From a bacterium (GTDB taxonomy: Bacteria > Zhuqueibacterota > QNDG01 > JABMRT01), in the NCBI GenBank assembly GCA_016931355.1, contig JAFGEX010000343.1, positions 1-41,813 of the forward strand: a stretch of DNA of 41,813 nt, in the 5' to 3' direction. Under the pieces are notes generated by a model, which had not been told where the DNA came from, did not search any database, and was given only the letters and a program-made list of their open reading frames with translations. Of the stretch, positions 353 to 40,868 are shown in pieces. The position numbers and the translations under genes were made by a program. How positions within the stretch are numbered: the first letter of the stretch is position 1; the number at the start of each line of letters is the position of its first letter.

Positions 353-432
353 GAATCTGACAGCGAGCGCATTCCCCACGGCAAGCCGCGGGGTAAGCAC
401 GCGAGCAAACGAACGACCGCGGAGCAGGCGGC

Positions 433-461
433 TTCATCGGCGGCTTTTGGACGCCGATGAA
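433..461 (+). other. Hairpin 1 inside repeat copy A
   Basis: Arms TTCATCGGCG and CGCCGATGAA form a perfect 10-bp stem around a 9-base loop. A second short hairpin (GGCGC/GCGCC, 466-480) follows directly. No run of T follows either, so they do not look like intrinsic terminators. Confidence 0.7.
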
Positions 462-497
462 GAAAGGCGCTTGATGCGCCGGCCAGTTTAAGATCGA

Positions 498-522
498 GAC
501 TCCCGTGCGGAGCACGGGAGTC
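498..522 (+). other. Hairpin 3 inside repeat copy A
   Basis: Arms GACTCCCGTGC and GCACGGGAGTC form a perfect 11-bp stem with a GGA loop. The flanks (AGATCGA before, GAAGATCAAT after) resemble the right module of the dispersed repeat, suggesting a diverged second copy of its hairpin. There is no U-tract. Confidence 0.75.
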
Positions 523-606
523 GAAGATCAATCCAAATGTCTTTTCCTTATGGATCGAAGGTTCCCTGCCGCTTGCTGCCGGGGAGGTCCATTTTTAAAT
601 AAATCG

Positions 607-635
607 TTGCATTCCTTATTTAATGTTTTTATATT
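607..635 (+). promoter_or_regulatory. Promoter of the arsenic operon
   Basis: TTGCAT (607-612) and TATATT (630-635) are separated by exactly 17 bases, a good sigma-70-type promoter. The -10 box overlaps the inverted repeat at 633-652, and the ArsR start codon lies 31 bases downstream of the -10 box. Confidence 0.75.
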
Positions 636-652
636 TCGTTTAATAACGAAAT
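633..652 (+). promoter_or_regulatory. Candidate ArsR operator
   Basis: ATTTCGTT-TAAT-AACGAAAT is a perfect inverted repeat with 8-bp arms. It overlaps the -10 box and the expected transcription start, just where an autoregulating ArsR repressor would bind. Binding is inferred from position and symmetry only. Confidence 0.7.
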
Positions 653-666
653 GAGGACAAGAGAAG

Positions 667-1020
667 ATGAAAACAATCGTTAGAATTTTCAAGGCGCTTT
701 CGGATCAGAACCGGATCCGCATCTTGAAGATGCTTCAATCCAGGCCGCTTTGCGTGTGCGAAATCACATCCATCCTGGGTTTGGCCACATCGACGGTATC
801 CAAACACCTTTCCATACTCAAGACGTCCGGATTGATCTCGGACCGGAAGGATGCCAAATGGGTCAATTACGAAATCGATTTAAATTCCGGAGATCCGGAG
901 GTTGACCGTGTTCTTCGGCTCATGCGGGGCATGCTGGAAAAAGACGAAGTAATCAGGACGGACCGTAAAAAAGTTACCACGGTCGACCGAAACCGCATCT
1001 GCAGCACGGAATCGTCTTGA
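667..1020 (+). CDS. arsR: ArsR/SmtB-family metalloregulator
   Basis: This 117-residue protein is a winged-helix ArsR-family repressor. Residues 8-75 contain the family pattern: ALSDQNRIRILKML, then PLCVCEI, then the recognition helix TSTVSKHLSILKTSGLI and the wing RKDAKWVNYEI. Cys29 and Cys31 in the LCVCE motif match the As(III)-binding cysteines of the alpha3 helix in classical ArsR proteins, and a third Cys (112) near the C terminus could be the extra ligand. In such repressors arsenite or antimonite binding releases DNA. It is the first gene of the operon and lies directly after a promoter whose -10 box overlaps a perfect inverted repeat, so autoregulation is likely. The arsenic assignment rests on the motif plus downstream acr3 and arsC. 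Confidence 0.92.
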   Translation: MKTIVRIFKALSDQNRIRILKMLQSRPLCVCEITSILGLATSTVSKHLSILKTSGLISDRKDAKWVNYEIDLNSGDPEVDRVLRLMRGMLEKDEVIRTDRKKVTTVDRNRICSTESS

Positions 1021-1054
1021 TTTGAATCAAATGAAAAGAGATTGGATCTGAATC

Positions 1055-2356
1055 ATGGATCTGAAAAAAGAATGGAAGCCCCTTTCCCTGATCGTTTCTG
1101 TCTTTCTTCTCGCGTATTTTCTTCCGGTCGGCAGGGTCCGCTTCGACAACGCGGTCATGGAGGCGCTGCATCTGTTCAAATGGTACGCCCGCGAACATGT
1201 TCTGCTCTGCCTGATCCCCGCGTTTTTCATCGCAGGCGTCATCAGCGTTTTCGTCAGCCAGGCTTCGGTCATCAGGTACTTCGGTGTAAACGCCAGGAAA
1301 TGGCTGGCTTACGGGGTTGCGGCCGTTTCCGGGACCATACTCGCGGTCTGCTCCTGCACCATCCTGCCTTTGTTCTCAGGCATTTACAGGCGCGGTGCAG
1401 GCCTGGGACCCGCCATTGCGTTTCTCTATTCCGGTCCGGCCGTCAATATCCTGGCCATCATCCTGACCGCCCGTATCCTTGGATTCGAACTGGGCATCGC
1501 GCGCGTCATCGGGGCTGTGATTTTCAGCGTGGCGATCGGGCTGATCATGCATTTCATCTACCGGAAGGAAGAAGCGGTCAAGGCGGAGAAACAGCTTGCC
1601 ATGCCCGCGCCTAAAGAGACGCGACCCCTGTGGCAGACGGCTGTTCATTTCTTCGTGCTGGTCGCGATCCTGGTGTTCGCCAACTGGGGCAGGCCGGACA
1701 CGGACTCCGGTTTCTGGCATGCGGTTTGGTCCTCCAAATGGGCGATCACATCCGTGTTCGGGCTGATGTTCGGGGTTTCGCTGATCTTCATCCTCAAATT
1801 GGACTGGAGGAAAGTGCTGCTCGCCGCCCTTCCCGTGATCCTGGCAGCATTGTTTTTTCCACGCAATCCGCTCATCCCCTTTGCAGCCGGCGTGCTGGCT
1901 ACATCCGTCCTGATCAGCCGGAAAGAAGGCGAACCTGCCTTGTGGATGTCCTCCACCTGGGATTTTACCAAACAGATCCTGCCTCTTCTCGGGGCCGGCG
2001 TTCTGGTTGCAGGGTTGCTTCTCGGATCCCATGAAGATGGAGAAGGTTTGATACCGGGCAGGTGGATATCCTCCCTGGTCGGCGGGAATTCCCTGTTCGC
2101 CAATTTCTTTGCATCCCTGGCGGGCGCTTTCATGTACTTTGCGACTCTGACGGAGGTGCCCATCCTGCAGGGGCTGATCGCAAACGGCATGGGCAAGGGG
2201 CCTGCGCTGGCATTGCTTCTGGCCGGACCGGCTCTGAGCCTCCCCAACATGCTGGTCATCCGCAGCGTCATCGGAACCCAAAAAACGGTGGTATATGTTT
2301 CGTTGGTCGTGATCATGGCCACTGTAACCGGGCTTATTTTCGGGAAATTATTCTAG
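1055..2356 (+). CDS. COG0701-family permease (ArsP-type, DUF318)
   Basis: A 433-residue polytopic inner-membrane protein with the COG0701 hallmark CSCTILPLFSGIYRRGAG early in the chain and a second related half (GAFMYFATLTEVPILQGL, LLAGPALSLPNMLVI) near the C terminus. Family members include ArsP, which exports trivalent organoarsenicals, but many homologues have unknown substrates. The paired cysteines in CSC are compatible with thiol or metalloid handling. It starts 34 bases after arsR and is followed 10 bases later by a CPKC redox protein, the usual partner of this permease type. It is therefore probably co-transcribed and arsenic-induced. The ArsP substrate is inference; a general transporter or a redox-linked role is equally possible. 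Confidence 0.85.
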   Translation: MDLKKEWKPLSLIVSVFLLAYFLPVGRVRFDNAVMEALHLFKWYAREHVLLCLIPAFFIAGVISVFVSQASVIRYFGVNARKWLAYGVAAVSGTILAVCSCTILPLFSGIYRRGAGLGPAIAFLYSGPAVNILAIILTARILGFELGIARVIGAVIFSVAIGLIMHFIYRKEEAVKAEKQLAMPAPKETRPLWQTAVHFFVLVAILVFANWGRPDTDSGFWHAVWSSKWAITSVFGLMFGVSLIFILKLDWRKVLLAALPVILAALFFPRNPLIPFAAGVLATSVLISRKEGEPALWMSSTWDFTKQILPLLGAGVLVAGLLLGSHEDGEGLIPGRWISSLVGGNSLFANFFASLAGAFMYFATLTEVPILQGLIANGMGKGPALALLLAGPALSLPNMLVIRSVIGTQKTVVYVSLVVIMATVTGLIFGKLF

Positions 2357-2366
2357 GAGTCTGACA

Positions 2367-2600
2367 ATGAAAAAGCTTCAAATTCTGGGCACGGGCTGTC
2401 CCAAATGCAAGAAACTGACCGAACTCACGGAGCAGGCGGCCAAAGAACTGGGTATGGAATACGAACTCGTCAAGGTGACGGACATCGGCGAAATCATGGG
2501 ATTCGGAGTCATGATGACTCCTGCCCTGGCCGTGGACGGAGAGGTGAAATCGGCAGGAAAGATCCCCGCTGTAAATGAAATCAAGAAACTCATCCAATAA
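2367..2600 (+). CDS. Small thioredoxin-like redox protein (CPKC)
   Basis: This 77-residue cytoplasmic protein has a minimal thioredoxin fold: beta strand MKKLQILGTG, active site CPKC at residues 11-14, a long helix, and the cis-Pro region VMMTPALAVDGEV. It matches the family of small redox-active disulfide proteins (TM0996/MTH895 type), which is commonly encoded next to COG0701 permeases. It likely exchanges dithiols with a partner, here possibly the permease, ArsC or the downstream CcdA-like protein. The start follows a TAGGAGT ribosome-binding site overlapping the permease stop. No signal peptide is present. Confidence 0.88.
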   Translation: MKKLQILGTGCPKCKKLTELTEQAAKELGMEYELVKVTDIGEIMGFGVMMTPALAVDGEVKSAGKIPAVNEIKKLIQ

Positions 2601-2774
2601 TCAAGCCCTGATGAGCAGACGGGGGAACACGTGTCCGAGATGATCGTGTCAACCGCACCGGATGCCGCCGGGGACGGCCGTTCTCTGGCTTCGAAAAACG
2701 GATGCAGCTGCGGCCTTTGCCGATTGAACGGGACCAGGCAGCGGGCCCATTTACATAGCACAGGAGACAACCGC

Positions 2775-3221
2775 ATGAGGACTGAAATCCGCACAGCGAT
2801 CTATTTTCTGATGCCTGTTTTCCTTGCGGCCGGATGCTCCAGCCAGAAGAATGAACAATCAAAAAATACTCCGCCCTTTTCGATCGCCGGAGGCGATACG
2901 GAGAAATCGGCAGCATTGGCCGAGACAGAAGCGGAAAAACCATGGGTCACATTCATCGAGCTGGGGTCCGTGAATTGCATCCCCTGCAAGATGATGCAGC
3001 CGGTCATGAAGGAGATTGAGGAGGAATATGCAGGACAGGTTCAGGTGGTGTTTTACGATGTCTGGACCCAGGCAGGCAAGCCGTATGCCGAGCAATACAG
3101 GATTCGGGCCATTCCAACACAAATCTTTCTAGACAGCGAGGGAAAGGAATATTCCCGCCATGAAGGCTATTTCCCGAAGGAGGAACTGGTCAAGGTCCTG
3201 AAACAGAAAGGCGTGAAATGA
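2775..3221 (+). CDS. Thioredoxin-fold lipoprotein (CIPC)
   Basis: The track ORF opens at 2631, but the ATG at 2775 has an AGGAG site 8 bases upstream and begins a lipoprotein signal peptide (MPVFLAAGC, lipidated Cys21), giving 148 residues. The mature protein holds a thioredoxin domain with active site CIPC (Cys68, Cys71), a cis-Pro segment IRAIPTQIFLD and a C-terminal helix EELVKVLKQ. It should sit on the periplasmic face and exchange dithiols with the CcdA-like membrane protein encoded next. An arsenic-related reductive role is inferred from the operon. The open frame extending 144 bases upstream encodes a CSCGLC motif, so an N-terminal extension cannot be fully excluded. Confidence 0.85.
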   Translation: MRTEIRTAIYFLMPVFLAAGCSSQKNEQSKNTPPFSIAGGDTEKSAALAETEAEKPWVTFIELGSVNCIPCKMMQPVMKEIEEEYAGQVQVVFYDVWTQAGKPYAEQYRIRAIPTQIFLDSEGKEYSRHEGYFPKEELVKVLKQKGVK

Positions 3222-3235
3222 GACTCTATTGCTGA

Positions 3236-3403
3236 ATGACGAACATCCTGATCTTCCTTGCTTTTCCGGTCTTCCTCTCCCTTTCCGGATGCAGCCGGTC
3301 GGATTCCTTTCAGGACGGCCTTTCCATTGCGGGCAGCCGGCGGATCTTTCATTCCAAACATCGTCACGGAGTTCCTGAATGCAGAATCTTTTCATCTGGC
3401 TGA
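3236..3403 (+). CDS. Possible small lipoprotein ORF
   Basis: This 55-residue reading frame starts with a convincing lipoprotein signal, MTNILIFLAFPVFLSLSGC, with lipobox LSGC and Cys19. It has only about 36 residues after the cysteine, without recognisable domain, and overlaps the next gene by 25 bases. It fills the gap between the thioredoxin lipoprotein and the CcdA-like gene. No strong ribosome-binding site precedes it. It may be a genuine small lipoprotein or the relic of a second periplasmic thioredoxin whose body has been lost. It is too short for the ORF track. Confidence 0.35.
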   Translation: MTNILIFLAFPVFLSLSGCSRSDSFQDGLSIAGSRRIFHSKHRHGVPECRIFSSG

Positions 3404-4080
3404 CCGAGAGTCTGAGCGGCGCGGCGTGGCTCGCGCTGACCGCATCCTTTTTATGGGGCATTTTGAGCATCCTGCTCAGCCCCTGCCATCTGGCTTCCAT
3501 CCCGTTGATCGTGGGATTCATTGACGGCCAGGGGATCGTCACGAAGAAACGCGCGTTCATCCTGGCCGCCCTTTTCTCAGTCGGCATCCTCATCACCATC
3601 GCGGTTATCGGCCTGATCACGGGGCTGATGGGACGCATGATGGGCGATGTCGGGAAGATCGGGAATTTTATTGTGGCCGTGATTTTCTTCGTGATCGGAC
3701 TGCATCTGCTCGAAATTATTAATCTGCCCTTTCCCGGCATGTCCAATCAGCCGAAGTTAAAAAAGAAAGGCGCGCTTGCCGCGTTTGTGATCGGCCTTGT
3801 TTTCGGAGTGGCCCTGGGTCCCTGCACCTTCGCCTACATGGCCCCCATGCTTGGGATCGCATTCAACACGGCCTCGACCCGCCCCGTATTTGCCGCATCG
3901 CTGATCCTGGTTTTTGCCGTGGGACACTGCTCGATTATTGTGCTGGCAGGCACGTTCACCAGCATGGTGCAAAAATACCTGCACTGGAACGAACGCTCCA
4001 AAGGCGCTTTGATTTTAAAGAAAGTCTGCGGGGTTCTGGTTATATGGGGTGGTATCTATCTGATCTGCAGCGTCCATTAA
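3379..4080 (+). CDS. CcdA/DsbD-type transmembrane thiol transporter
   Basis: A 233-residue membrane protein with about six hydrophobic helices. It has the paired family motifs LSPCHLASIPLIVGF (Cys36) and GVALGPCTFAYMAPM (Cys149), which form the intramembrane redox pair of CcdA proteins. CcdA passes electrons from cytoplasmic thioredoxin to periplasmic thioredoxin-like partners. Here the neighbours offer both sides: a cytoplasmic CPKC protein and a periplasmic CIPC lipoprotein. A role in supplying reductant for arsenic handling is inferred; general cytochrome c or disulfide functions are possible. CcdA-like ArsG transporters of aromatic arsenicals are known from other ars operons, but the motifs here look closer to ordinary CcdA. 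Confidence 0.82.
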   Translation: MQNLFIWLTESLSGAAWLALTASFLWGILSILLSPCHLASIPLIVGFIDGQGIVTKKRAFILAALFSVGILITIAVIGLITGLMGRMMGDVGKIGNFIVAVIFFVIGLHLLEIINLPFPGMSNQPKLKKKGALAAFVIGLVFGVALGPCTFAYMAPMLGIAFNTASTRPVFAASLILVFAVGHCSIIVLAGTFTSMVQKYLHWNERSKGALILKKVCGVLVIWGGIYLICSVH

Positions 4081-4094
4081 GAAAAAGGATTTCG

Positions 4095-4196
4095 GTGCGT
4101 CTATTTTGGATGACCGAAGCTGTGATACTCCTGATCGCGCCGGCCATGGAACGCTTGACGAAAAAAGACCGTTTTTCGATTGAAGATCCGGTATGA
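4095..4196 (+). CDS. Possible 33-residue single-helix peptide
   Basis: A GTG-initiated frame encodes [33 protein letters not shown], with one short hydrophobic stretch and a charged tail. It fills the otherwise empty 148 bases between the CcdA-like gene and acr3. A weak AAGGAT lies upstream. It may be chance; I recognise no family. Confidence 0.22.
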
Positions 4197-4228
4197 CCCT
4201 GGCGCTCCATAAAAAAGAGGAAGCATTC

Positions 4229-5266
4229 ATGAGTCCCATTTCGAAAAAACTGTCAAGACTGGATCGATTCCTGACCCTTTGGATATTCCTGGCCATGGCA
4301 TTCGGAATCTTCCTGGGATATGCATGTCCGTCCGTTACAGGATTCATCACACGCCTCCAGGCCGGGACGACATCCATCCCCATTGCCGCCGGACTGATTC
4401 TGATGATGTATCCGCCGCTGGCGAAAGTCAGGTACGAGGAATTGGGGGATGTATTCAAGAATGGGAAGGTTCTCAGCCTCTCTTTGATACAGAACTGGGT
4501 GATCGGTCCGATACTGATGTTCCTCCTTGCCGTGCTCTTTCTCCCGAATCACCCCGAATACAGGACCGGCCTGATTCTGATCGGACTCGCCCGATGCATC
4601 GCCATGGTCATTGTCTGGAACGACCTGGCCGAGGGCGATTCCGAATATGCGGCAGGCCTGGTCGCCTTCAACAGCATCTTCCAGGTTTTGTTTTATTCGG
4701 TTTATGCATGGATTTTCATCACCCTGCTGCCTCCCCTGTTCGGATTGAAGGGGATGGTCGTCCACATCACCATCGGCCAGATTGCCGAAAGTGTTTTCAT
4801 TTACCTGGGCATCCCCTTCCTGGCCGGAGCCTTGACCCGTTTGATTCTCGTGAAAGCAAAAGGGAAGGAGTGGTATCATTCCAAATTCATCCCGGTGATC
4901 AGTCCGGTCACGTTGATCGCGCTTCTGTTCACCATCATCGTGATGTTCAGTCTGAAAGGGGAAACCATCATCCGGATCCCGCTGGACGTCGCCCGGATCG
5001 CGTTGCCGCTGCTGATCTATTTTGTGGTCATGTTTCTGGTGAGCTTCTTCATGGGGAGGAAGATCAACGCCGGATACGGCAGATCGGCAACCCTGGCCTT
5101 CACGGCAGCCAGCAATAATTTTGAGCTTGCCATCGCCGTCGCGGTGGCTGTTTTCGGAATCCATTCGGGAGAGGCCTTTACAGCCGTGATAGGCCCGCTG
5201 GTGGAAGTCCCCGTGATGATCGGCCTGGTGAATGTGGCTTTGAGGTTGAAGGAAAAGTCAGGTTGA
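4229..5266 (+). CDS. acr3: ACR3-family arsenite efflux permease
   Basis: The chosen ATG at 4229 is preceded by an AGAGGAAG site and gives 345 residues; the track's earlier ATG at 4193 has no good site. The protein has ten or so membrane helices of the BASS/ACR3 fold, with the family signatures [19 protein letters not shown] (conserved Cys123 in the helix needed for As(III) transport) and [23 protein letters not shown]3 exports arsenite using the proton-motive force. It lies directly upstream of arsC, so arsenate reduced by ArsC can be expelled. Its length is normal for bacterial ACR3 proteins. Confidence 0.93.
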
Positions 5267-5303
5267 ACAACGAAAAGGCGACTGAGGGAGAAAGGGATAC
5301 GGT

Positions 5304-5758: not shown

Positions 5759-5830
5759 GGTCTGCGCATACGGCTTTTATATCTTAAAATTATATTTATC
5801 GAACAGGGGAAATCCTAGCGTTCCCTTGTT

Positions 5831-5880
5831 GAATCTGACAGCGAGCGCATTCCCCGCCGCTTGCGGCGGGGAGCTTCAAT
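5831..5880 (+). repeat. Dispersed intergenic repeat, copy B (internally deleted)
   Basis: The left module GAATCTGACAGCGAGCGCAT runs straight into the right hairpin CCCCGCCGC/GCGGCGGGG and the end module AGCTTCAAT, lacking the middle modules found in full copies. The junction falls in ATTCCCC, a string that ends both the left module and the third module, so a deletion between short direct repeats explains this 50-bp form. Confidence 0.85.
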
Positions 5881-6206
5881 CCCTATGTTCGTATATTCGG
5901 AGGGCAAAGCCCTCGCGATGATTCGCCCTGGGGCAGAGCCACAGGGCGATCAGGGGGTCCTGTCCGGCAGAAGCGCCAAGGATGATCGCACCGGGGCTGT
6001 GCTCCGGTGTGCATAAAAAGGGGGAGCAGGGAGAAGAATCAGTCGCCGGTTTTGTGATGATATCCATTGGCTCCCCGGACTCCGACAAACCTTTCTGCCA
6101 CGACCAGAGTGACAAAACGCTCTGCCGGAATCCTTGCCCGGCCCCTCCCGGTTTTCCTGAACGGCCGCAACAACCGGGAGCCCGCCGTCCATGCGTGCTT
6201 TCCATC
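5881..6206. other. Intergenic stretch between arsC and the ABC cassette
   Basis: No gene is supported. Overlapping ORFs on both strands (5876-6205, 5950-6330, 5982-6227) have proline/arginine-rich, compositionally random translations and none has a good start site. The convergent ends of arsC (plus) and the outer-membrane barrel gene (minus) meet here. Confidence 0.5.
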
Positions 6207-7478: not shown

Positions 7479-7584
7479 TTTCCGACGATCCGACACGACT
7501 CTTGGTGCGGAAAGACCGCCGGCCCGCCGGACCTGCGCGATGAGTACACGGATGACGGCCATTCCCTTCATTTAATCCCCAGGT

Positions 7585-7698
7585 GAATCTGAGAGCGAGC
7601 ATATTCCGCGGGGCTTGCCCCGGGAAAAGCGAATGAATATCAATGTCTTTTTCCCTCTAGATCGAAGATTCCCCGCCGCTTGCGGCGGGAGCTTCAAT
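7585..7698 (+). repeat. Dispersed intergenic repeat, copy C (full length)
   Basis: All modules are present: GAATCTGAGAGCGAGC, a first hairpin (CGGGGCTTGCCCCG), the middle part ATCAATGTCTTTTTCCCT, then AGATCGAAGATTCCCC, the second hairpin (CCGCCGCTTGCGGCGG) and AGCTTCAAT. It sits between the ATPase and barrel genes, inside what would otherwise be one operon. Confidence 0.88.
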
Positions 7699-7710
7699 CC
7701 GGAGGTTTCT

Positions 7711-18768: not shown

Positions 18769-18780
18769 GGCTGATTTTCT

Positions 18781-19190
18781 GATGCTCCAATCCCGGGGTG
18801 GGCCCCGGGGATCCGCTTGAAAACAAATCATGGATCCCGGGTTTTGATGCTTTCTGGTACTTTATGCATGGAGGAATCCTGTCTGGTGCACCGAATCACA
18901 GTTTTCCCGGGCACCCGGGATGACATTTCCTGGGATTCTTCAACCCCGGGGTTGACCCGGGAGATCGGGGTTGCACTCAGGAATCTTCGGGTGGATTCCC
19001 GATAAAAGATTTCTGGAATGACAGCAGGGTGATGCTCCCACCCCGGGGTGGACCCCGGGGTCTGTTCGACTCTGGATCCCGGATTTTGAGGTTCGCAGTC
19101 TCCTGGGGCATCAATGAATCATGACCGGAGCACAGAATCCACAAATCCGGCAGACCCGGGATGATTCTCCAACCCCGGGGTGCATCTTCC
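18781..19190. repeat. Duplicated GC-palindrome-rich intergenic unit
   Basis: Two diverged direct copies lie about 240-250 bases apart. GATGCTCC followed by a CCCCGGGG-rich pair starts at 18781 and 19031; TGGATCCCGG(G/A)TTTTGA occurs at 18831 and 19073; TTCT(T/C)CAACCCCGGGG occurs at 18937 and 19165. The units are rich in CCCGGG/CCCCGGGG palindromes and encode no credible protein. It differs in sequence from the dispersed 115-bp repeat. Confidence 0.7.
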
Positions 19191-26572: not shown

Positions 26573-26656
26573 TCATCAAAAAATTCCGGAAATTCAGAAA
26601 GAATTTTACGGATATTCAAGGTGACGACTGTTGATTTTTGCATTTCGAAAGATTTC

Positions 26657-26807
26657 GAATCTCTCCTCTGGCCTGTTCCCCGCGATCTGCCGCGCGGGAG
26701 CGGGCGCGAGAACGGTCCGGATCACTGCGACGCATCTTCAAGGCGCGTCGCAGTTCACGAAACTGCGGATCGAAGATTCCCCGCCTTTTGAAGCGGTGAG
26801 CTTCAAT
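26657..26807 (+). repeat. Dispersed intergenic repeat, copy D (diverged, with insert)
   Basis: A diverged left module (GAATCTCTCCTCTGGCC, TTCCCCGCG) is followed by a hairpin at 26725-26753 (arms CTGCGACGC/GCGTCGCAG), then a clear right module GGATCGAAGATTCCCCGCC and GAGCTTCAAT. It ends 25 bases before the LacI start codon, so it would lie in the 5' leader of that gene. Confidence 0.7.
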
Positions 26808-26832
26808 CCAATAACGGATTGAAAGGACTTCC

Positions 26833-27846: not shown

Positions 27847-27889
27847 CCGGGGCGCACCGTTTCTTTCCTTCCCGATTTTGAAATCCGGC

Positions 27890-28022
27890 GGCGGGCCCTT
27901 TCCCCGGGGCTTTCCGCTGGGCTTGCCCCGGGCCTTGTCCCGCGGCAAGCGGGCGAATGCGAACAGCCATTTTTCCTGAAGATCAAAAATTCTCCGGAAG
28001 CCGGCTTCCGGGGGGCTTCAAA
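27890..28022 (+). repeat. Dispersed intergenic repeat, copy E (diverged)
   Basis: Tandem GC hairpins (TCCCCGGGGC, GGGCTTGCCCCGGG) precede CAAGCGGGCGAATGCGAACA, a TTTTTCCT tract, AAGATCAAAAATTC and a final hairpin CCGGAAGCCGGCTTCCGG ending GGCTTCAA. The module order matches the consensus, although the sequence is diverged. It follows the LacI stop codon by about 45 bases. Confidence 0.65.
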
Positions 28023-28156
28023 AACACCTTCACTCTTCTTCTGTACTACGAAAACGCGGGGATACTTCTTTCCCTCCCAAATGGAGGCCGTTGCGATTTT
28101 CCTTGCGGAATTGACTGAATTCCATTATTTTATACTGTTTTTACGGAGGATGGACC

Positions 28157-28271
28157 GAATCGGACGGCGCGCGCATTTTCCGCGGCTTGCCGCGGGGCGT
28201 ATAAGCGTCTATTCATGTCTTATCCTTGCAGATCGAAGATTCTTCTCCGGGAGCTGCCGGGGAGATTCAAT
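28157..28271 (+). repeat. Dispersed intergenic repeat, copy F (full length)
   Basis: Contains GAATCGGACGGCGCGCGCAT, hairpin CCGCGGCTTGCCGCGG, a middle part TATTCATGTCTTATCC, then GCAGATCGAAGATTCTTC, a second hairpin around CTCCGGGAGCTGCCGGGG and end AGATTCAAT. It ends 20 bases before the MFS start codon, close to its ribosome-binding site. Confidence 0.8.
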
Positions 28272-28291
28272 TATAGGTAGGTAATAGTTAT

Positions 28292-30250: not shown

Positions 30251-30388
30251 GGGTGTACCCGAACGGGATGCGGATGAGGGAGAAGAAGCGCAATCCGTCC
30301 CGCGGCGGATTGAAGCACCCCGGTATCGTGCCGCCGGGGGATAGTCGATCGGCAAGGATGATCACTTTTGTATTTGTTTGCGGTCAGA

Positions 30389-31462
30389 TCATCTCTTGAC
30401 CCGCGCATTCCCCTCCCAGATGCTCCAGATTTCCTCTTCATCCGCGGGCTGCGCGTAATCGGTGAGCAGGGTAGTGGCCAGCGCGCCGCCGGCCCAGCCG
30501 AATTGAACCCATTTTTCAGGCTCCCATCCCCTGAGCACAGCGTGGAGAAGGCCGCCCACAAACGCGTCCCCGCCTCCGATGCGGTCGAGCACGGCGATTT
30601 CGCGCGGCCCCACGACATGCCAGCTGTCCCCTGCATACAGGATGGCGCCCCATTTGTGCAGGTTGGCGTTCACGACTTCGCGCAGGGTTGTGGCGAATAC
30701 GGACGCTGCGGGATAGGCTTTCCTGACCCGTCCGATCATTTCCTTGAAGCTGTCGATCTTGCCCGCCAGCCCCTTGCCGCCCGCCTCGGGCCCCTCGATC
30801 CCCAGGGCCAGCTGGAAGTCCTCCTCGTTCCCCACGAGGATATCCGCAGATCCGGCGATCTGGTGGAAAATGTCCCTGAGTTCCTTCTGCCGGTTTTTCC
30901 AGAACGAGGCCCTGTAGTTGAGGTCGAATGAGATTCGGGTACCGTGCTTTTTCGCTGCCTTCGCCAGCCCCAGGCAGAATTCGCCTGTTTCCGGTGAAAG
31001 TGCTGCGATCAGGCCGGACAGGTGCAGGATCTGCACGCCTTCCTTTCCGAAGATGCGCTCCAGATCGAAATCCCTGACGTTCAGCGTGCGGCCCACCTCG
31101 CCGGCGCGGTCGTTGTGCACGCGCGGGCCGCGCGAACCTTTCCCGCTGTCCGCGATGTTGAACTGATGCCGGAATCCCCACGGGCCGCCCTGTTCGACCT
31201 CTTTGCCTTCGACATCCATGTGCCGGCCCGCGAGATCGTCCTTGATCAGGCGCGCCACCGGGCTGCCCTTGACGAATGTGGTGAGCACCTTCACGCGCAT
31301 GCCGAGAAACGCAGGGATGCTCGCCACATTCGTTTCAGCGCTGGTGGCCTGGAGGAAGAAGTTCCTGCTTGCGTGCACGGGCTGTCCTTCTGCAGGCGTG
31401 ATTCGCACGCCCATGCTCGAAGGCACGAGCAGGGCATATCGCGAGTCTTTGCGGAGTTCCAT
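30389..31462 (-). CDS. PfkB-family sugar kinase (KDG-kinase-like)
   Basis: The second ATG (31462) lies 6 bases after AAAGGA and gives 357 residues. PfkB features are visible: SIPAFLGMRVKVLTTFVKGSPVARLIKDDL (the N-terminal substrate region), ISFDLNYRASFWKNRQKELRDIF, DILVGNEEDFQLALG, and the catalytic anion-hole motif DRIGGGDAFVGGLLHAVL. The sequence is closest in style to 2-keto-3-deoxygluconate kinases. It lies 154 bases downstream of the isomerase gene in the pentose operon. Because the AraBAD-type route needs no such enzyme, it may extend the operon to uronates or another sugar acid, or phosphorylate a side substrate. Confidence 0.87.
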   Translation of the reverse strand: MELRKDSRYALLVPSSMGVRITPAEGQPVHASRNFFLQATSAETNVASIPAFLGMRVKVLTTFVKGSPVARLIKDDLAGRHMDVEGKEVEQGGPWGFRHQFNIADSGKGSRGPRVHNDRAGEVGRTLNVRDFDLERIFGKEGVQILHLSGLIAALSPETGEFCLGLAKAAKKHGTRISFDLNYRASFWKNRQKELRDIFHQIAGSADILVGNEEDFQLALGIEGPEAGGKGLAGKIDSFKEMIGRVRKAYPAASVFATTLREVVNANLHKWGAILYAGDSWHVVGPREIAVLDRIGGGDAFVGGLLHAVLRGWEPEKWVQFGWAGGALATTLLTDYAQPADEEEIWSIWEGNARVKR

Positions 31463-31497
31463 GTCCATCCTTTCGGTTCGGGCGACCCCGGGGTACT

Positions 31498-31552
31498 GAC
31501 AATTCCGGGGCTTGCCCCGGAATCAGCGAGCGAATCCAAATGTCTACATCCA
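31498..31552 (+). repeat. Dispersed intergenic repeat, copy I (left-middle fragment)
   Basis: GACAATTCCGGGGCTTGCCCCGGAATCAGCGAGCGAATCC and AAATGTCTACATCC reproduce the first hairpin and middle module of the repeat, without the right hairpin. It lies between the isomerase and kinase genes. Just beyond it a pair of (A/T)TGCGACGCA motifs, framed by CTGAAA and TTTCAG (31580-31620), echoes the insert hairpin in copy D. Confidence 0.65.
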
Positions 31553-31616
31553 AACGGACCCCGGGGTACAATCCGGGACGCTGAAACTGCGACGCAACTC
31601 GAAATTGCGACGCATT

Positions 31617-35763: not shown

Positions 35764-36795
35764 TTATTGATAATAATCGATATTCTCCCGGGTCAGGATG
35801 TCCAGCGGCATCATGATGCGGCTTTCCACCTTCTCCCGGAAGAGAAGATGCCTGCACAGGCAGTCGATGCTCCGGTATCCCTGGAGGTCCGGTTTCTGGC
35901 TGATCAGAAAGTCGATGGATCCCTCCCTGAGCAGCCGGACGTTCCGGGGTATCAGGTCGTATCCGATCAGGCGGAATTTCCGTTTTGATCGTATTTCCTG
36001 CAGGGCCCCGACAATGCGGTGCATGGAGGCGTCGGTTACGAATATCCCTTCCAGGTCCGGCAGGGATTCGATTTGGGATGCAAACCGCTTTGTAAACAGC
36101 GCGGGGCTTTCCTCGCCCTGCATGCTGATCGTGAAAACCGGCGCGATCCCGCAGTCCCGGTAATGGGAGAGGAAGCCGGCCGCGCGCCGGTCGATATGAT
36201 AATCCTCGGGAAGTACGCGCAGGACCGCCACATCCATTCCTTCACGGATGATGTTTTTCATGAGCGAGGCGGCCAGGACGCCCCCCTGGAAGGGATCCTG
36301 TCCGATGAAACTCAAGGGCTCGACCGTGGGGATGGATGAATCGATGAACACAAAGGCGAGGTCCTGCGGTAATTTCCGGATGAACCGTTCCGTGGCCCAT
36401 GGCAACACGGGCGCGATGACGAGGCCGTCCACCCTGTCCGCCAGAGCCTGCTTTCCGGCCTCCACGAAGGAGGCCTCCGAATACCGGTCGAAATGATAGG
36501 CCTGCGTGCGGATATGGTAGGATTGGAAATCCCTGCCTGCTTTTTCAATGCCCGCCATGGGGATTTCCCAGTATCCCCCGTCCTGCGCAGGCTCGGGCGT
36601 CAGGATGCCGAATGTGAACACACGGGTTCTTTTCAGGTTCTGGGCGAATGCATTGGGTTTGTATTTCATTTCCTCGATGATGAACCGGACTTTTTCCTCG
36701 GTCTCTTTGGACACGCGGCCGCGTTTATGAATGACGCGGTCCACTGTTCCGATGGAAACATGCGCTTTTTTTGCTATGTCTTTGATTGTCGTCAA
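35764..36795 (-). CDS. LacI-family regulator of the pentose operon
   Basis: 343 residues; initiation is at a TTG because the first codons (TTG ACG ACA ATC) begin the canonical helix-turn-helix TTIKDIAKKAHVSIGTVDRVIHKRGRVSKETEEKVRFIIEEMKYKPN. The ligand-binding domain (FTFGILTPEPAQDGGYWEIPMAGIEKAG, VDGLVIAPVLPW, FVFIDSSIPTVEPLSFIGQDPFQGGVLAASLM, EGIFVTDASMHRIVGALQEI) is sugar-sensing and resembles the LacI subgroup with periplasmic-binding-protein type sensors. It heads the araB-araD-isomerase-kinase group and its promoter carries an overlapping inverted repeat, so it is probably an autoregulated pentose repressor. There is no good ribosome-binding site ahead of the TTG. Confidence 0.9.
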   Translation of the reverse strand: MTTIKDIAKKAHVSIGTVDRVIHKRGRVSKETEEKVRFIIEEMKYKPNAFAQNLKRTRVFTFGILTPEPAQDGGYWEIPMAGIEKAGRDFQSYHIRTQAYHFDRYSEASFVEAGKQALADRVDGLVIAPVLPWATERFIRKLPQDLAFVFIDSSIPTVEPLSFIGQDPFQGGVLAASLMKNIIREGMDVAVLRVLPEDYHIDRRAAGFLSHYRDCGIAPVFTISMQGEESPALFTKRFASQIESLPDLEGIFVTDASMHRIVGALQEIRSKRKFRLIGYDLIPRNVRLLREGSIDFLISQKPDLQGYRSIDCLCRHLLFREKVESRIMMPLDILTRENIDYYQ

Positions 36796-36796
36796 G

Positions 36797-36851
36797 TTAA
36801 AACCAATAAAATCAGATTGCGTTATGGTTCACGCAATATAACAGGTTTTAA
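36797..36851 (-). promoter_or_regulatory. Nested inverted repeats over the pentose-operon start
   Basis: The inner repeat is ATTGCGT-8-ACGCAAT (36816-36837), abutting the -10 box; its central spacing and G/C steps suit a dimeric LacI protein. An outer pair TTAAAACC (36797-36804) and GGTTTTAA (36844-36851) encloses it with nearly the same centre. The arrangement could allow looping or two-site occupancy near the regulator's own start codon. Confidence 0.6.
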
Positions 36852-36863
36852 TGGATTAGTCAA
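36835..36863 (-). promoter_or_regulatory. Promoter of the pentose operon
   Basis: On the minus strand TTGACT (36858-36863) and TATATT (36835-36840) are 17 bases apart, near consensus. The operator-like inverted repeat begins at the -10 box. Initiation would fall about 30 bases before the TTG start of the regulator. Confidence 0.75.
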
Positions 36864-36894
36864 GTGGAAATCGGAAAGGAATCCGGCTTTATGT

Positions 36895-37010
36895 GAATCG
36901 GACAGCGAGCGCATTCCCCTTTTAGCCTGCTCCGGGATAAGCGAGCGAATCCAAATGTCTTTTTTTGCAGATCGCAGATTCCCCGCCGCGGGCTGCCGGG
37001 GAGCTTCAAT
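36895..37010 (+). repeat. Dispersed intergenic repeat, copy G (full length)
   Basis: GAATCGGACAGCGAGCGCAT and a degraded first hairpin are followed by AAGCGAGCGAATCC, AAATGTCTTTTTTTGC, AGATCGCAGATTCCCC and a final hairpin around GCCGCGGGCTGCCGGGG, ending AGCTTCAAT. It sits between the pentose promoter and the promoter of the 37232 gene. Confidence 0.85.
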
Positions 37011-37029
37011 CAGGGTGCATACCCTGAGT

Positions 37030-37112
37030 CTTGCCGCCGGCAAGCGAGCGGGCAGGCGTGTCTTTTTCCCGGAGAGACCGAAGTCTCCCCGCTTCGAGTC
37101 GGCCGGGAATCC
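37030..37112 (+). repeat. Dispersed intergenic repeat, copy G2 (tandem partial)
   Basis: Immediately after copy G a diverged second copy supplies TTGCCGCCGGCAAGCGAGCG, GTGTCTTTTTCCC, AGACCGAAGTCTCCCCGC and CGGCCGGG. The tandem pairing recalls the nested layout of copy A and the pair at 40690-40868. Confidence 0.6.
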
Positions 37113-37137
37113 TATTATCCTGGATTCATAAATGTCC

Positions 37138-37166
37138 TTGACATTCAACAATAGGTTTTATATATA
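37138..37166 (+). promoter_or_regulatory. Promoter of the coiled secreted-protein gene
   Basis: TTGACA (37138-37143) and TATATA (37161-37166) are spaced by 17 bases, a strong sigma-70-type promoter about 65 bases before the ATG at 37232. Confidence 0.75.
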
Positions 37167-37231
37167 TCCTTTGTACGCTATCCTTTTGCCCGGCTTCCAT
37201 TCATGCTGTTTCACTCAAGACAGGAGGATCT

Positions 37232-38479
37232 ATGAGTACGGAGATTCCGTTCATCGCAGCATCCTGTATCCTGCTGCTTTCCCTGGCATCGGCAGACGGC
37301 GGTCAGCCTGTGGACATCAAGGTGCTTTGCAAGGAAGTGAACGCGGACATTCGCGCCGTTGAAAAGATGAGGGATAAAGACACGGCTGTGGCCAAAATTG
37401 CGGAAATCCGCAAAAAAATTGATGCCATAGCGAAGCTGGATCCGGGTTACTTCGAGCTGCGCGGCCTCGAGACCAAGTACAAGCGGCTCACAGGCATATA
37501 CGGGGCGCCTGCGGGAACGGCTGCTCCCGCCGCGAAACCTGCGCCGGACCCGGGCCGGTCCGCCTCTTCTCCTGAAAGGGAGCAGGCATTGAAGGACTGG
37601 CAGGAGATCAGTCAATTGAGAAGGGGCTTCCTCAAGGACGTGGAAACGGTCATCCCCTCCTATGTGAAAAACGTCATATACAGCGACAGCGACATCGACG
37701 AGGTCATTGCCAAAATACGTTCATTCCAGGCCCAGGCCCCCGGTGTCAAGGCCAGGCTGGAGGCGTTCCGCAAAAAGTACGGTTCGGACCCGGATGAAAT
37801 TGACAGGAAAATGGAGGATCTGAAACCCGGAAACCAAAGGCCCCCGGACTCGGCCGGACGATGCTTCTCCGAATTGTCAAACGGATTGACGAACCTGGAA
37901 GAGGCGCCGAAGATAGAAGCGAAAAAAATCCTGGCGGGCGTGCTTTCGAGCCTGGACCGGATTGAGAACTTCATTGCGGACACGGAGCGCGACAGGAGAT
38001 ATCAGGAACTGGAGGCGAGCATACAGAAAGGGCTCAAATTCAATCCCCAGGACGCGGAACTCAAGGAATGGGCCTTGAAGATCAAAACGCTCAGGCAGAA
38101 ATCGCAGGCGGACATTGAAAAATCTCTGGATGCGGCGCGCTTTCCGGGTCACATGACCGGTTTCGCAGGGCCGGGCGGCGTGGATGAGCTCGCGGCTTCC
38201 TGCGTTAAATATTTCAATGAGTCGGATCCCTCCCAGACCACGGTCAAGGTCAGCATTGCGGGCAACTGGGTCGTGGCGAAGGAGAACATTTTCGGGGAGC
38301 CGGTTCAATGGGGACTGCCCATATGGGCGGTCGGATACAAGAACGACAACCGGGAGATCGCCCGGGTATTCAAACTGACCATTTTGACAGGGGAAGCATT
38401 GGGAATTTCCAAGAGCCCGCCCTGGACCGGCCAGTGGGTGGGCGATTCCTACAGGATGCGCACGGCCAATATTAAATGA
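37232..38479 (+). CDS. Secreted helical protein of unknown function
   Basis: 415 residues with AGGAGG 4 bases ahead of the ATG and signal peptide MSTEIPFIAASCILLLSLASADGG. Residues about 25-320 are mostly charged helix, likely coiled coil (IRAVEKMRDKDTAVAKIAEIRKKIDAIAKL, DEVIAKIRSFQAQAPGVKARLEAFRKKYG, KIEAKKILAGVLSSLDRIENFI). A proline/alanine linker near 90-110 interrupts them. The last 90 residues form a Trp-rich beta domain (STVK-like VSIAGNWVVAKENIFGEPVQWGLPIWAVGYK ... ILTGEALGISKSPPWTGQWVGDSYRM). I recognise no family. A periplasmic structural or adaptor role is possible but unsupported. It has its own promoter. Confidence 0.8.
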   Translation: MSTEIPFIAASCILLLSLASADGGQPVDIKVLCKEVNADIRAVEKMRDKDTAVAKIAEIRKKIDAIAKLDPGYFELRGLETKYKRLTGIYGAPAGTAAPAAKPAPDPGRSASSPEREQALKDWQEISQLRRGFLKDVETVIPSYVKNVIYSDSDIDEVIAKIRSFQAQAPGVKARLEAFRKKYGSDPDEIDRKMEDLKPGNQRPPDSAGRCFSELSNGLTNLEEAPKIEAKKILAGVLSSLDRIENFIADTERDRRYQELEASIQKGLKFNPQDAELKEWALKIKTLRQKSQADIEKSLDAARFPGHMTGFAGPGGVDELAASCVKYFNESDPSQTTVKVSIAGNWVVAKENIFGEPVQWGLPIWAVGYKNDNREIARVFKLTILTGEALGISKSPPWTGQWVGDSYRMRTANIK

Positions 38480-38553
38480 TTTATCCCGCCAGGGGGGTGC
38501 TTCGCCGAGTGCTCCTGCGGACAAACGGCCCGGACGCGTGTAGCGTGTGTTTT

Positions 38554-38660
38554 TTGAAACCTCCCGGAAGCGGGGAGAGTTGGATTTTTGATCTCTCCGG
38601 GGAGAAGACATTTAAGCTGCTTGCTTACGCAGCAGCAGGCTGTGGGGGATGCGCTCGCAG
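38554..38660 (-). repeat. Dispersed intergenic repeat, copy J (minus orientation)
   Basis: Read on the minus strand it gives GCGAGCGCATCCCCC, a CTGCTGCTGCGTAAGCAAGCAG hairpin region, AAATGTCTTCTCCCC, AGAGATCAAAAATCC, TCTCCCCGCTTCCGGGAGG and TTTCAA. Modules appear in the consensus order. It is the only clear minus-strand copy and lies between two plus-strand genes; further bases to 38816 hold no gene. Confidence 0.65.
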
Positions 38661-38749
38661 CCCGATGGATTTTCATTTTGAAGAACCACGATGTTTTATA
38701 TTCGGAACGGTTTTTGCATATTTGTCATAAATTACGAAGTACATGGAAA

Positions 38750-38772
38750 TTGAAACGATATGCATCGTTCAA
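38750..38772 (+). promoter_or_regulatory. Inverted repeat upstream of the sensor kinase
   Basis: TTGAAACGAT-ATGC-ATCGTTCAA is an inverted repeat with a perfect AACGAT/ATCGTT core, 45 bases before the kinase start codon. It is a candidate operator, with no family consensus recognised. Confidence 0.4.
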
Positions 38773-38816
38773 AGCCGTTTTTGATTTCATTTTGGGATGC
38801 GTGATGGGGTCATCAG

Positions 38817-40253
38817 ATGGCCAGGCTGCTCATTGTTGACGACGAAGCGGTTATTCTGATTCAACTCAAGGAATATCTCCGCGACATGGGGTACGAGGTG
38901 GCGGGAACCGCCGTGTCCGGAGAGGACGCTGTGGAAAAAGCCAGGGAGTTGAATCCGGACCTGATCCTGATGGACATCTACCTGGCGGGCAGAAAGCTCG
39001 ACGGGATCTCGGCTGCCGTCAAGATCAAGGATGAGATGAACATCCCCGTTATTTTTATGACGGCTTTCGGCGGCGATCAGGTTCTGGAGCGCGTAAAAAA
39101 CGTCGAGCCCTACGGCTTTGTCCTCAAGCCCTTTCAGAACACGGAACTGAAGGCTGCCATTGACGTGGCCATGATACGCAAGGACATGGAATCCCGCCTG
39201 AGGGAGTCCGAGGCGAAGCTCCGGTCCGTGGTCGATACAGCCAACGAGGCCATCATCACAACGAACAATCTCAATCAGATCATTTTCTGGAACCGGGCCG
39301 CGCATTCCTATTTCGGCTACACGGAACAGGAAGCCCTGGGCCGGACCCCGCGGCTGCTGTTTCCGGGAAAGGACGCGGATTACATCGAACCGGAGATGGA
39401 GAGGATCATCGCTTCAGGTAAATCCGAACTGCTGGGGATAAATTTCGAAGTGACCGGCCGCCGGAAGAACGGAAGCGAATTTCCCATGGAATGCTCGCTG
39501 GCGACCTGGAGGGTGAACCGCCAGGTTTTCATGACCCTGATCGGCAAGGACATCACGGAACGGAAGAAGATCGATCAGATGAAGAGCGATTTTGTGTCCC
39601 TGGTCTCCCATCAGCTGCGCACGCCCCTGGCCGGGATCATGGGCTGCGTGGACAACATGCTCTGGGGCCTGACCGGGACGCTGAGCTTCAAGCAGATGGA
39701 ATACCTGCAGGTCATGAAGGAAATCAGTTCGCGCGGATACCGGATCATTGCGAACCTCCTCAACATTTCGCGCCTGGAACGCGGCGTCATCTCCATGGAC
39801 ATACGGCCGGTTGATTTGTGCTATGTGGCGAGGAATGCGGCGAATGAGCACAGCGCTGCGATCGAAAGCAAAGGCCTCAAGCTCACAGTCGAAGCTCCGG
39901 ACGGGCAGATCCTCGTCCTGGCGGACAAGGACAAACTTTTCGAGGCGATCAGCAACGTGGTTCACAACGCCTCCAAATTCACGGATGCGGGGAAAATTTC
40001 CGTACGCATCTTCAGTGACGATTCTCACGGGAAGGTCAAAATTTCAGACACGGGCCCCGGCATTGAACCGGCGGGCATGAAATACCTGTTCAGCCGGAAC
40101 CAGATTCTGTCCGGAAACGCCACTTACAAGGGCGGATGCGGGCTCGGCCTGTTCATTTCCAAGCAATTCATGCAGCTTCAGAACGGGGACGTGGACGTTC
40201 AATCCAGGCGGGGAAAGGGCGCGGCGTTTACTTTTCGCATCCCCCTGGCTTAA
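38817..40253 (+). CDS. REC-PAS-histidine kinase (hybrid sensor)
   Basis: 478 residues, cytoplasmic, with no membrane segment. Residues 1-120 are a receiver (acidic D8/D9, phospho-acceptor Asp53 in LILMDIY, FMTAF, FVLKPF). Residues about 125-245 are a PAS domain (RSVVDTANEAIITTNNLNQIIFWNRAAHSYFGYTEQEALGR, then a PAC-like FMTLIGKDITERK). A HisKA dimer helix with SHQLRTPLAGI follows and the HATPase ends the chain (N-box NVVHNASKF, G1 ISDTGPGIEP, G2 GCGLGLFISK). A receiver at the N terminus suggests it takes phosphate or a signal from another kinase. The adjacent receiver protein, 35 bases downstream, is the likely output partner. Confidence 0.93.
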   Translation: MARLLIVDDEAVILIQLKEYLRDMGYEVAGTAVSGEDAVEKARELNPDLILMDIYLAGRKLDGISAAVKIKDEMNIPVIFMTAFGGDQVLERVKNVEPYGFVLKPFQNTELKAAIDVAMIRKDMESRLRESEAKLRSVVDTANEAIITTNNLNQIIFWNRAAHSYFGYTEQEALGRTPRLLFPGKDADYIEPEMERIIASGKSELLGINFEVTGRRKNGSEFPMECSLATWRVNRQVFMTLIGKDITERKKIDQMKSDFVSLVSHQLRTPLAGIMGCVDNMLWGLTGTLSFKQMEYLQVMKEISSRGYRIIANLLNISRLERGVISMDIRPVDLCYVARNAANEHSAAIESKGLKLTVEAPDGQILVLADKDKLFEAISNVVHNASKFTDAGKISVRIFSDDSHGKVKISDTGPGIEPAGMKYLFSRNQILSGNATYKGGCGLGLFISKQFMQLQNGDVDVQSRRGKGAAFTFRIPLA

Positions 40254-40288
40254 GGCGGCTCAAGGGTGAGATCATTAAGGAGGAACAT

Positions 40289-40672
40289 ATGGATGAGGAC
40301 CGCAAACCGAAGATTCTGATCATCGAAGACGAGGCCGTGTTCCGGCTCATCTATCGCGGCGTGCTCGAGAGCCACAATTACAAGGTTTTCGAGGCGGACA
40401 CGGGGATGGCGGGCCTGGATCTCGCCAAGACCGAGCGTCCGGACATGATTCTGCTCGACCTCATCCTGCCGGACATCAGCGGGTACGAGGTGCTCAAGAA
40501 GATCAAGGCGCACGACCTGACCTGCACCATCCCCGTCATCGTCTTTTCCGTCATGGGGACGGAGGAGAACATTGAGAAGGCCAAGGAACTGGGCGCGGAT
40601 TATTACCGGGTCAAGGGAGCCAATTCGCCCAGCGATATCCTGAAGGAAATCGAGAGGATCATCGGCGCTTGA
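40289..40672 (+). CDS. Single-domain response regulator (CheY-like)
   Basis: The ATG at 40289 has AAGGAGG ahead of it and gives 127 residues; the track ORF extends upstream in error. It is a lone receiver: ILIIEDEAVFRLIYRGV with acidic pocket E13/D14, Asp57 in MILLDLILPDISGYEV, and PVIVFSVMGTEENIEKAKELGADYYRVKGAN carrying the Ser and Lys switch positions. It has no DNA-binding output, so it must act by protein contact or as a phosphate shuttle. It follows the hybrid kinase directly and is probably co-transcribed with it. Confidence 0.93.
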   Translation: MDEDRKPKILIIEDEAVFRLIYRGVLESHNYKVFEADTGMAGLDLAKTERPDMILLDLILPDISGYEVLKKIKAHDLTCTIPVIVFSVMGTEENIEKAKELGADYYRVKGANSPSDILKEIERIIGA

Positions 40673-40689
40673 ACCTGACCGTGCGAGTC

Positions 40690-40760
40690 GGTGAGCGAAT
40701 CCGGATGTCTCTTTCCCCGCAGATCGAAGATCCCCCGGCAGCCCGGTTCGGGGGCTTACA
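40690..40760 (+). repeat. Dispersed intergenic repeat, copy H1 (right part)
   Basis: GTGAGCGAATCCGGATGTCTCTTTCCCC, AGATCGAAGATCCCCC and a final hairpin around CGGCAGCCCGGTTCGGGGG are the middle and right modules of the repeat. The left module is absent. It starts about 18 bases after the response-regulator stop codon. Confidence 0.7.
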
Positions 40761-40769
40761 CCTGGGGGC

Positions 40770-40868
40770 GGGCGCATCCCCCGGGGCTTGCTCCGGGGCA
40801 GACGGTCGAATACGCATGTTTTTGCCTTCAGGATCGAAGAGATGAAGGCGGCTTGTCCGGGACTTCAA
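40770..40868 (+). repeat. Dispersed intergenic repeat, copy H2 (tandem)
   Basis: Directly following H1: GCGCATCCCCCGGGGCTTGC with hairpin CCCCGGGGCTTGCTCCGGGG, then GGTCGAATACGCATGTTTTTGCC, AGGATCGAAGAGATGAAGG and a weak right end GGACTTCAAAC. A third left-end fragment (CCGCATCCCCCGGGG) follows at about 40880, so this gap is a tandem array of repeat modules. Confidence 0.65.

Follow-up and report, generated by a model that had tools for sequence, protein, structure and literature searches.

The stretch analysed here (hereafter the window) comprises all 41,813 nucleotides of contig JAFGEX010000343.1 (GenBank assembly GCA_016931355.1, lineage Zhuqueibacterota), i.e., one whole contig (C76) of a metagenome-assembled genome (MAG) that amounts to 3.89 Mb in 412 contigs and is 84% complete. 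It carries copies of a dispersed palindromic repeat of ca. 110 nt, a mobile element that is the subject of this study. Copies were located by an unfiltered scan with R1, a covariance model (CM) built from genome-wide copies, the window copy at 7583 among them. At a cut-off of E<0.005, 13 matches were found, mostly decayed, and two of these lie on the minus strand, where the original prediction for this DNA had counted a single one. The features of the window are the following:

351–593, plus strand: copy split by an insert of ca. 115 nt into a left part (351–413) and a right part (ca. 530–593); R1 matches 351–413 (46.4 bits) and 474–593 (31.1 bits); a similar insert is present in another copy (L019).
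5829–5882, plus strand: internal-deletion derivative in which the left end is fused to the right hairpin and the AGCTTCAA end, read from the sequence; R1 match 5829–5940 (31.6 bits); a similar fusion is present in L068.
7584–7587, plus strand: TGAA, the target and left cleavage site (CL) beside the best copy, named after the target retained in empty/occupied comparisons of relatives.
7588–7697, plus strand: best-preserved full copy, TCTGAGAG...AGCTTCAA; R1 match 7583–7699 (112.5 bits); ends set by the empty-site comparisons.
7658–7662, plus strand: TAGAT, right strand of helix B, which pairs with A7587–G7591 (ATCTG; last pair G·T), as supported by cross-genome covariation.
7667–7670, plus strand: GATT, putative right guide on the 5′ side of the right hairpin; its suggested partner, by the rule of PMC5934647, is the cleavage site TCAA at 7694–7697.
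26655–26808, plus strand: decayed copy with a palindrome inserted between its left and right parts; R1 match 26763–26808 (36.5 bits).
27879–28023, plus strand: decayed copy with an additional left hairpin; R1 match 27892–28023 (27.6 bits unfiltered, 42.2 bits with default filters).
28155–28272, plus strand: diverged copy of full length; R1 59.6 bits.
30308–30425, minus strand: decayed copy; R1 33.2 bits.
31482–31573, plus strand: partial copy (left hairpin and AGCGAGCGAATCCAAATGTCT linker); R1 20.7 bits, E 0.004.
36898–37009, plus strand: full copy with target TGAA (36894–36897), left guide CATT (36912–36915), helix B strand CAGAT (36968–36972), right guide GATT (36977–36980) and right end TCAA (37006–37009); R1 match 36893–37011 (98.9 bits).
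37012–37110, plus strand: probable second tandem copy, strongly decayed, recognised by eye only and without a CM match at E<1.
38552–38670, minus strand: decayed copy; R1 25.2 bits, E 3.9e-4.
40669–40870, plus strand: two decayed copies head-to-tail (40669–40752 and 40756–40870); R1 matches 40669–40732 (23.3 bits) and 40756–40870 (48.8 bits); the TGAA of the first overlaps the TGA stop codon of the open reading frame at 40136–40672.

The family thus indicated by the window is real and extends throughout the genome. Its 15-mer core GATCGAAGATTCCCC, with at most one mismatch allowed, occurs 264 times genome-wide and not once as the reversed pattern, while approximate left and right modules yielded dozens of matches in 380 kb and none in the reversed sequence. 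Since core and modules are far commoner than in reversed sequence, the matches cannot be dismissed as isolated or as no better than shuffled sequence. The modules assemble, in the fixed order that had been claimed for them, into one consensus of ca. 118 nt (TTGAATCTGACAGCGAGCGCATTCCCCGCGGCTTGCCGCGGGGTAAGCGAGCGAATCCAAATGTCTTTTTCCCTACAGATCGAAGATTCCCCGCCGCTTGCGGCGGGGAGCTTCAATC), close to the predicted length of about 115 bp. R1 produced at least 150 candidate matches in the genome (best E 5.9e-30), and the 93 non-overlapping matches in the sampled 380 kb (vs. 56 core hits) extrapolate to ca. 440 copies in the MAG, a rough figure as the sample had been chosen for copies. The preference for the plus strand holds within the window but not as a genome-wide rule. 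The proposed internal duplication dissolved on inspection: the shared GCGAGCG core reflects the two arms of one imperfect palindrome at the left.

Mobility was assessed from the flanks of eleven copies in genome G009, which were joined without the element and searched for in its congener G004. Ten pairs could be aligned, of which six are clean empty sites (i.e., L033/L208, GTG|AA|CCGCATCC; L037/L212, CGG|AA|TCCGGAG; L038/L209, TTG|AA|TCCGTTG; L039/L205, CCTG|AA|CGGTCC; L040/L207, GCTG|AA|AGAAATC; and L042/L210, CATG|AA|CCAACGG), two are consistent with a mutated target (L032/L211 and L039/L206), and two are uninformative in that element-like sequence is kept in the relative (L041/L213 and L035/L214). 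In the clear cases an empty X-TGAA-Y corresponds to an occupied X-TGAA-TCTG...AGCTTCAA-Y, so that the element is defined as TCTG...TTCAA (ca. 110 nt), placed directly 3′ of TGAA; one of the six clean sites reads CGGAA instead of TGAA. These empty sites prove that the element is mobile, and this part of the original suggestion of a MITE- or REP-like element (i.e., a miniature inverted-repeat transposable element or a repetitive extragenic palindrome) stands. Its ends, TCTG... and ...CTTCAA, form no terminal inverted repeat, and there is no target duplication beyond two shared A's, although a 2-nt duplication is formally indistinguishable owing to the two A's common to target and end.

Movement as a classical MITE, in which a DDE transposase duplicates 2 bp (AA) of the target, would explain the AA at both junctions and the lack of genes inside. 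This candidate is contradicted by the lack of terminal inverted repeats (TCTG... vs. ...CTTC) and by a 4-mer target, TGAA, with one fixed insertion position, and we consider it hardly credible.

In three genomes, no part of the target other than TGAA is strongly fixed (ca. 4–5 nt being fixed), with species-specific preferences for a T before and a T after TGAA. The 3′ flanks in the window's genome favour T, C, N, G (T 39/45, C 32/45, G 23/45), resembling the element start TCTG; part of this preference stems from tandem copies. In G042 only a T is favoured (19/20) and in G039 nothing clear was seen. An extended targeting in which downstream target bases pair with the CAGAT strand, as the flanks in the window's genome had suggested, was rejected as a general rule, G042 having T at 19 of 20 sites where C is predicted. 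A preference for TGA stop codons was likewise rejected (8 of 72 copies, vs. 10.5% of all TGAA sites).

Head-to-tail copies display a junction between right end (RE) and left end (LE) that reads ...GCTTCAA-TCTGACAG.... Such circular-junction-like tandems, and the sharing of a core, would also fit an IS110-type enzyme that moves a small element through a 2-nt core (AA) common to the target and both ends. IS110-type enzymes recognise long targets by means of a bridge RNA. Only ca. TGAA is fixed in the target here, and an IS110-type route would not account for the two subterminal hairpins, which are asymmetric and have matching guides (see below); we hold it to be highly improbable.

The element has two unlike subterminal hairpins, left and right, within a fold that is conserved across genomes. 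An alignment of 40 copies from about 30 genomes (A5) supports six helix segments with 94.4% of the cells paired. Two-sided changes number 80, vs. 28 expected from shuffling (none of 500 shuffles being as high), and covariation reaches 0.214, vs. 0.087±0.007 after shuffling and at most 0.065 with slid partners. The invariance of the right hairpin is partly due to the search pattern for public copies, of which this hairpin was a required part; neither the left hairpin nor the helix described next is affected by this. Compensatory changes, which had been put forward as a test of the predicted repeat, thus exist, and selection on a substrate of transposition accounts for them best.

Beside the hairpins, A5 contains a third helix (helix B), in which the final A of TGAA, together with the first ca. 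four nucleotides of the element, pairs with a segment located one nucleotide 5′ of GAAG. It reads ATCTG/CAGAT in the window's genome, and ACCG/CGGT, ACTG/CAGT, AAATG/CATTT, ACATG/CATGT or ATATG/CATAT elsewhere. Anchored at the left, its second pair is CG in 25 copies, TA in 8 and AT in 4, its third pair CG in 19, AT in 9, TA in 3 and GC in 2, and its fourth pair GC in 16, TA in 14 and CG in 3. Cognate ends form 4.36 bp, vs. 2.64 bp when partners are swapped between genomes (permutation p of 5e-5). Within the window's genome alone covariation is weak, as would be expected of copies that share one source and are decaying. In DNA folding, the integrated strand adopts this three-helix structure (z of –3.3), whereas the RE-LE junction folds into one long right hairpin (i.e., CAGAT-c-GAAG-...-CTTC-a-ATCTG; z of –4.8). 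No description of helix B was found in the open-access literature.

Strong conserved structure with compensatory changes is also what a structured regulatory RNA, or a cis-regulatory leader present in many copies, would display, as the original prediction had considered. The precise empty sites, the tandem units and the decay of most copies speak against this, as do the occurrence in both orientations and in gaps with unrelated neighbours and the conserved tetranucleotides, expected of transposon ends, that both hairpins bear. A known structured RNA family was rejected, no Rfam match being obtained at gathering scores or at E≤1, and no common gene context was seen. A regulatory RNA is therefore unneeded as well as unsupported, and very unlikely.

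The tetranucleotides in question, CATT before the left and GATT before the right hairpin, resemble the guides of IS608. As published, IS608 inserts 3′ of TTAC, which is retained at the left, has the cleavage sites TTAC and TCAA and carries the guides AAAG (GL) and GAAT (GR) 5′ of its hairpins, with guide bases +16 and +17 pairing with target bases –3 and –4 (A16:T–3 and A17:T–4; PMC5934647). The guide/cleavage-site relation has been stated in general form (PMC6006769), and as “linear and cross complementarity” of guides (PMC8266576). Judged from the bases themselves, CATT/TGAA (left) and GATT/TCAA (right) appear to obey the IS608 relation at guide positions 1 and 2. By our own reading of the IS608 tetranucleotides, they also share with them a last guide base that complements the last cleavage-site base. 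CATT lies at +15 to +18, a stretch that includes the +16 and +17 of the IS608 left guide. The element thus resembles IS608 in having a putative guide before each hairpin, in the rule by which this would pair and, very nearly, in the spacing. Conservation among 97 strong copies of the window's genome is 0.87–0.99 for CATT, GATT and TCAA and 0.84–0.96 for TGAA, with a mean of 0.84 over all columns.

Y1 transposase (PF01797) genes were found in 22 of the 24 genomes examined, and some of these genes have ends that closely resemble those of the element. A Desulfobacteraceae MAG (G042) harbours a multi-copy, partly broken IS200-type tnpA (L217, L220, L221, L223 and L228) with the LE ...CAATA-CCCCGTCGGCTTGCGGCGGGG-TTAA... 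and the RE ...GATA-CCCCGC..GCTCTGCGGCGGGG-AGCTTCAT (hairpin CCCCGC...GCGGGG). These ends are conserved among copies whose outer flanks differ, and at least one copy has an in-frame stop after HVHIF; this tnpA is a decaying autonomous family with look-alike ends. In G097, an IS200-type tnpA (L285) has ...CAATACCCCGCAGCTTGCTGCG... upstream and a similar hairpin with TTCAT downstream, and its 3′ end gives a weak match (E 0.0067) to R2, the cross-genome CM. Around the tnpA genes of G042 and G097, the hairpins and the AGCTTCA end are near-identical to those of the repeat. Because their guides differ (GATA etc.), these elements are relatives of the repeat and not its parent. The parent has either been lost or escaped assembly, given that MAG contigs break at repeats, or else the element relies on a distant TnpA.

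A second Y1-based explanation is a REP or bacterial interspersed mosaic element (BIME) moved by TnpA_REP/RAYT, a domesticated Y1 enzyme that is not of the IS200 type. The copy numbers in the hundreds are REP-like, most carriers possess RAYT-like Y1 genes and the window's genome has a RAYT-like fragment. Like REP, BIME and REPIN with TnpA_REP, the repeat is intergenic, palindromic, of high copy number and Y1-linked in its logic. However, REPs are single palindromes of 20–40 bp with a GTAG or CGTC tag (PMC3733652), whereas the repeat is a two-ended unit of ca. 110 nt with two unlike hairpins, a linker and precise insertion. Neither tag occurs in its consensus, so that a GTAG/CGTC-tagged REP was rejected, as was the classical MITE, and the original suggestion is only partly right. 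Moreover, Y1 classes vary between carriers, two carriers have no Y1 gene, no Y1 gene among several dozen loci is flanked by the element's ends, and the Y1 genes of ca. 330 aa have other inverted repeats. We regard a RAYT-driven origin as unlikely. The “atypical secondary structures” linked to class 3/subclass 2.6 TnpA_Y1, which reach up to ca. 600 in one genome (PMC6006769), are likewise Y1-related and of high copy number, but class 3 feet are CnGA (PMC6006769), and no such protein was tied to the element in this analysis. The RAYT-like fragment of the window's genome, a truncated Y1 gene (L031; G000:C40:1-320), has another kind of palindrome, of GTAG type (CGTAGGGGCGGCCCCCTGTGGCCGCCC), inside it or beside it.

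The CM search of the genome and its relatives that had been proposed for the predicted repeat revealed further copies in both. Among 39 genomes, mostly relatives, the only carriers are the window's genome, the congeneric G004 and G009 of another family, and G007. Two genomes of the window's own family had no R1 match, and G002 gave only two weak R2 matches. A right-hairpin pattern matched 104 stretches in public genomes of Desulfobacterales, Desulfobulbales and Nitrospirota (including the complete chromosome of Ca. Manganitrophus GAC4), and in MAGs labelled Myxococcia, Proteobacteria and Verrucomicrobia. Related copies are thus patchily spread across Thermodesulfobacteriota, Nitrospirota and other lineages. 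With R2, matches were obtained in 28 of 58 genomes (a Ca. Desulfaltia MAG and relatives). Copy numbers reach at least 150 in the 2.0 Mb of G039, 126 in G042, 92 in G047 and 90 in G050. Copies identical over 117–118 nt occupy different sites, and one such sequence is common to two genomes (L125/L146 and L132/L143). In the open-access literature, to which the search was limited, neither the sequence nor a repeat of this kind in these phyla turned up, which is weak evidence of novelty.

Taken together, the repeat is very probably a non-autonomous transposable element of the IS200/IS605 type, similar to palindrome-associated transposable elements (PATEs). With IS200/IS605 members (i.e., IS608, ISDra2 and the insertion sequences carried by G042 and G097) it shares insertion 3′ of a retained tetranucleotide, the right end TCAA and subterminal hairpins, and its hairpin and AGCTTCA terminus are nearly identical to those of the G042 insertion sequence. 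Unlike them, it lacks tnpA and tnpB, measures only ca. 110 nt and targets TGAA. Its LE-RE bridging helix is not described in the accessible part of the IS608 account and is not evident in the G042 insertion sequence. PATEs (PMC3119063, PMC7290912) are short, ends-only IS200/IS605 derivatives presumed to be mobilised in trans, the PATE-like copy reported being a single one visibly derived from an IS605 in the same genome. The present element differs from that copy in its occurrence in several phyla, in numbers of up to hundreds per genome, and in a conserved internal fold of its own. The cross-phylum spread and the end-bridging helix are new features.

An IS200/IS605-type element of this kind may move as follows. 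When its strand becomes single-stranded during replication, helix B and the two hairpins would fold and bring the ends together, with helix B clasping the two ends of a very short element. A dimer of a Y1 (HUH) TnpA acting in trans would then cut after TGAA and TCAA, directed by CATT and GATT, seal the donor and release a single-stranded circle, in whose RE-LE junction helix B would be kept as an extension of the right hairpin. Subsequently, CATT would pair with a new TGAA, and the element would reinsert directly 3′ of it, leaving this TGAA at its left flank.

Several observations weigh against an IS200/IS605-type assignment. The window's genome yielded no intact cognate tnpA; its one RAYT-like fragment is truncated and lies at the edge of a contig. 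Among several dozen Y1 loci, no tnpA with exactly these flanking ends was found. Both the complete Ca. Manganitrophus GAC4 genome (23 copies) and nzgw269 (27 copies) returned no Y1_Tnp. Although use of the lagging strand would be expected, 42 of 73 copies lie on the strand of positive GC skew (p=0.24), i.e., without significant bias. The guide role of CATT and GATT is itself a rule that we infer from sequence, and a minority of copies carry CTAA in place of CATT while still residing at TGAA, which counts against a strict guide rule. In these copies the left palindrome is perfect (GCTAACCCC...GGGGTTAGC; e.g., L139, L151, L102, L088, L094 and L037), and they look like products of quasipalindrome correction by template switching after insertion.

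As to helix B, we consider the chances evenly balanced that it constitutes a new functional part of single-strand transposons. In that case it would hold the left terminus paired to the right end until excision and then fold anew over the junction of the excised form, where it lengthens a hairpin. A geneless element of ca. 110 nt could thereby bring its own ends into synapsis and, with a borrowed TnpA, multiply to hundreds of copies in different phyla. Natural variants of transposon end-to-end pairing are now available, and the role of such DNA pairing in single-strand transposition becomes directly testable. In addition, what had been an anonymous repeat between the genes of uncultured Desulfobacterota, Nitrospirota and related MAGs is now a mobile element whose ends, target and structure are defined, so that it can be annotated and cleared from spurious gene calls.

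Some copies were found to host other short sequences. A second mini-element of ca. 45 nt (...TCTTCAATAA...ACAATAGCTTGATCCCGC..GCGGG) is nested exactly in the hairpin loops, in both orientations, in G004 and G009, both in the left hairpin (L038, L039, L040, L043 and L046–L048) and in the right one (L032, L041, L042 and L045), and appears to be a separate element that targets hairpin loops. Other short inserts in the left hairpin loop, several of them with ATCCCG...CGGG, occur in Desulfobacterota and in a Zodletone MAG (L093, L096, L097, L115 and L127). A short dispersed palindrome, AACTGCGACGCA...TGCGTCGCAGTT, is present at 26726–26755 and 31585–31614 of the window, one of the two lying in a decayed element, and a similar string flanks the copy in L001. 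Finally, several copies of another palindromic repeat (TGATGCTCCAACCCCGGGGTGGACCCCGGGG...GGATCCCGG) lie in one large intergenic gap at 18777–19182, and the segment 13253–14359 has the 15-base periodicity typical of a pentapeptide-repeat protein gene.

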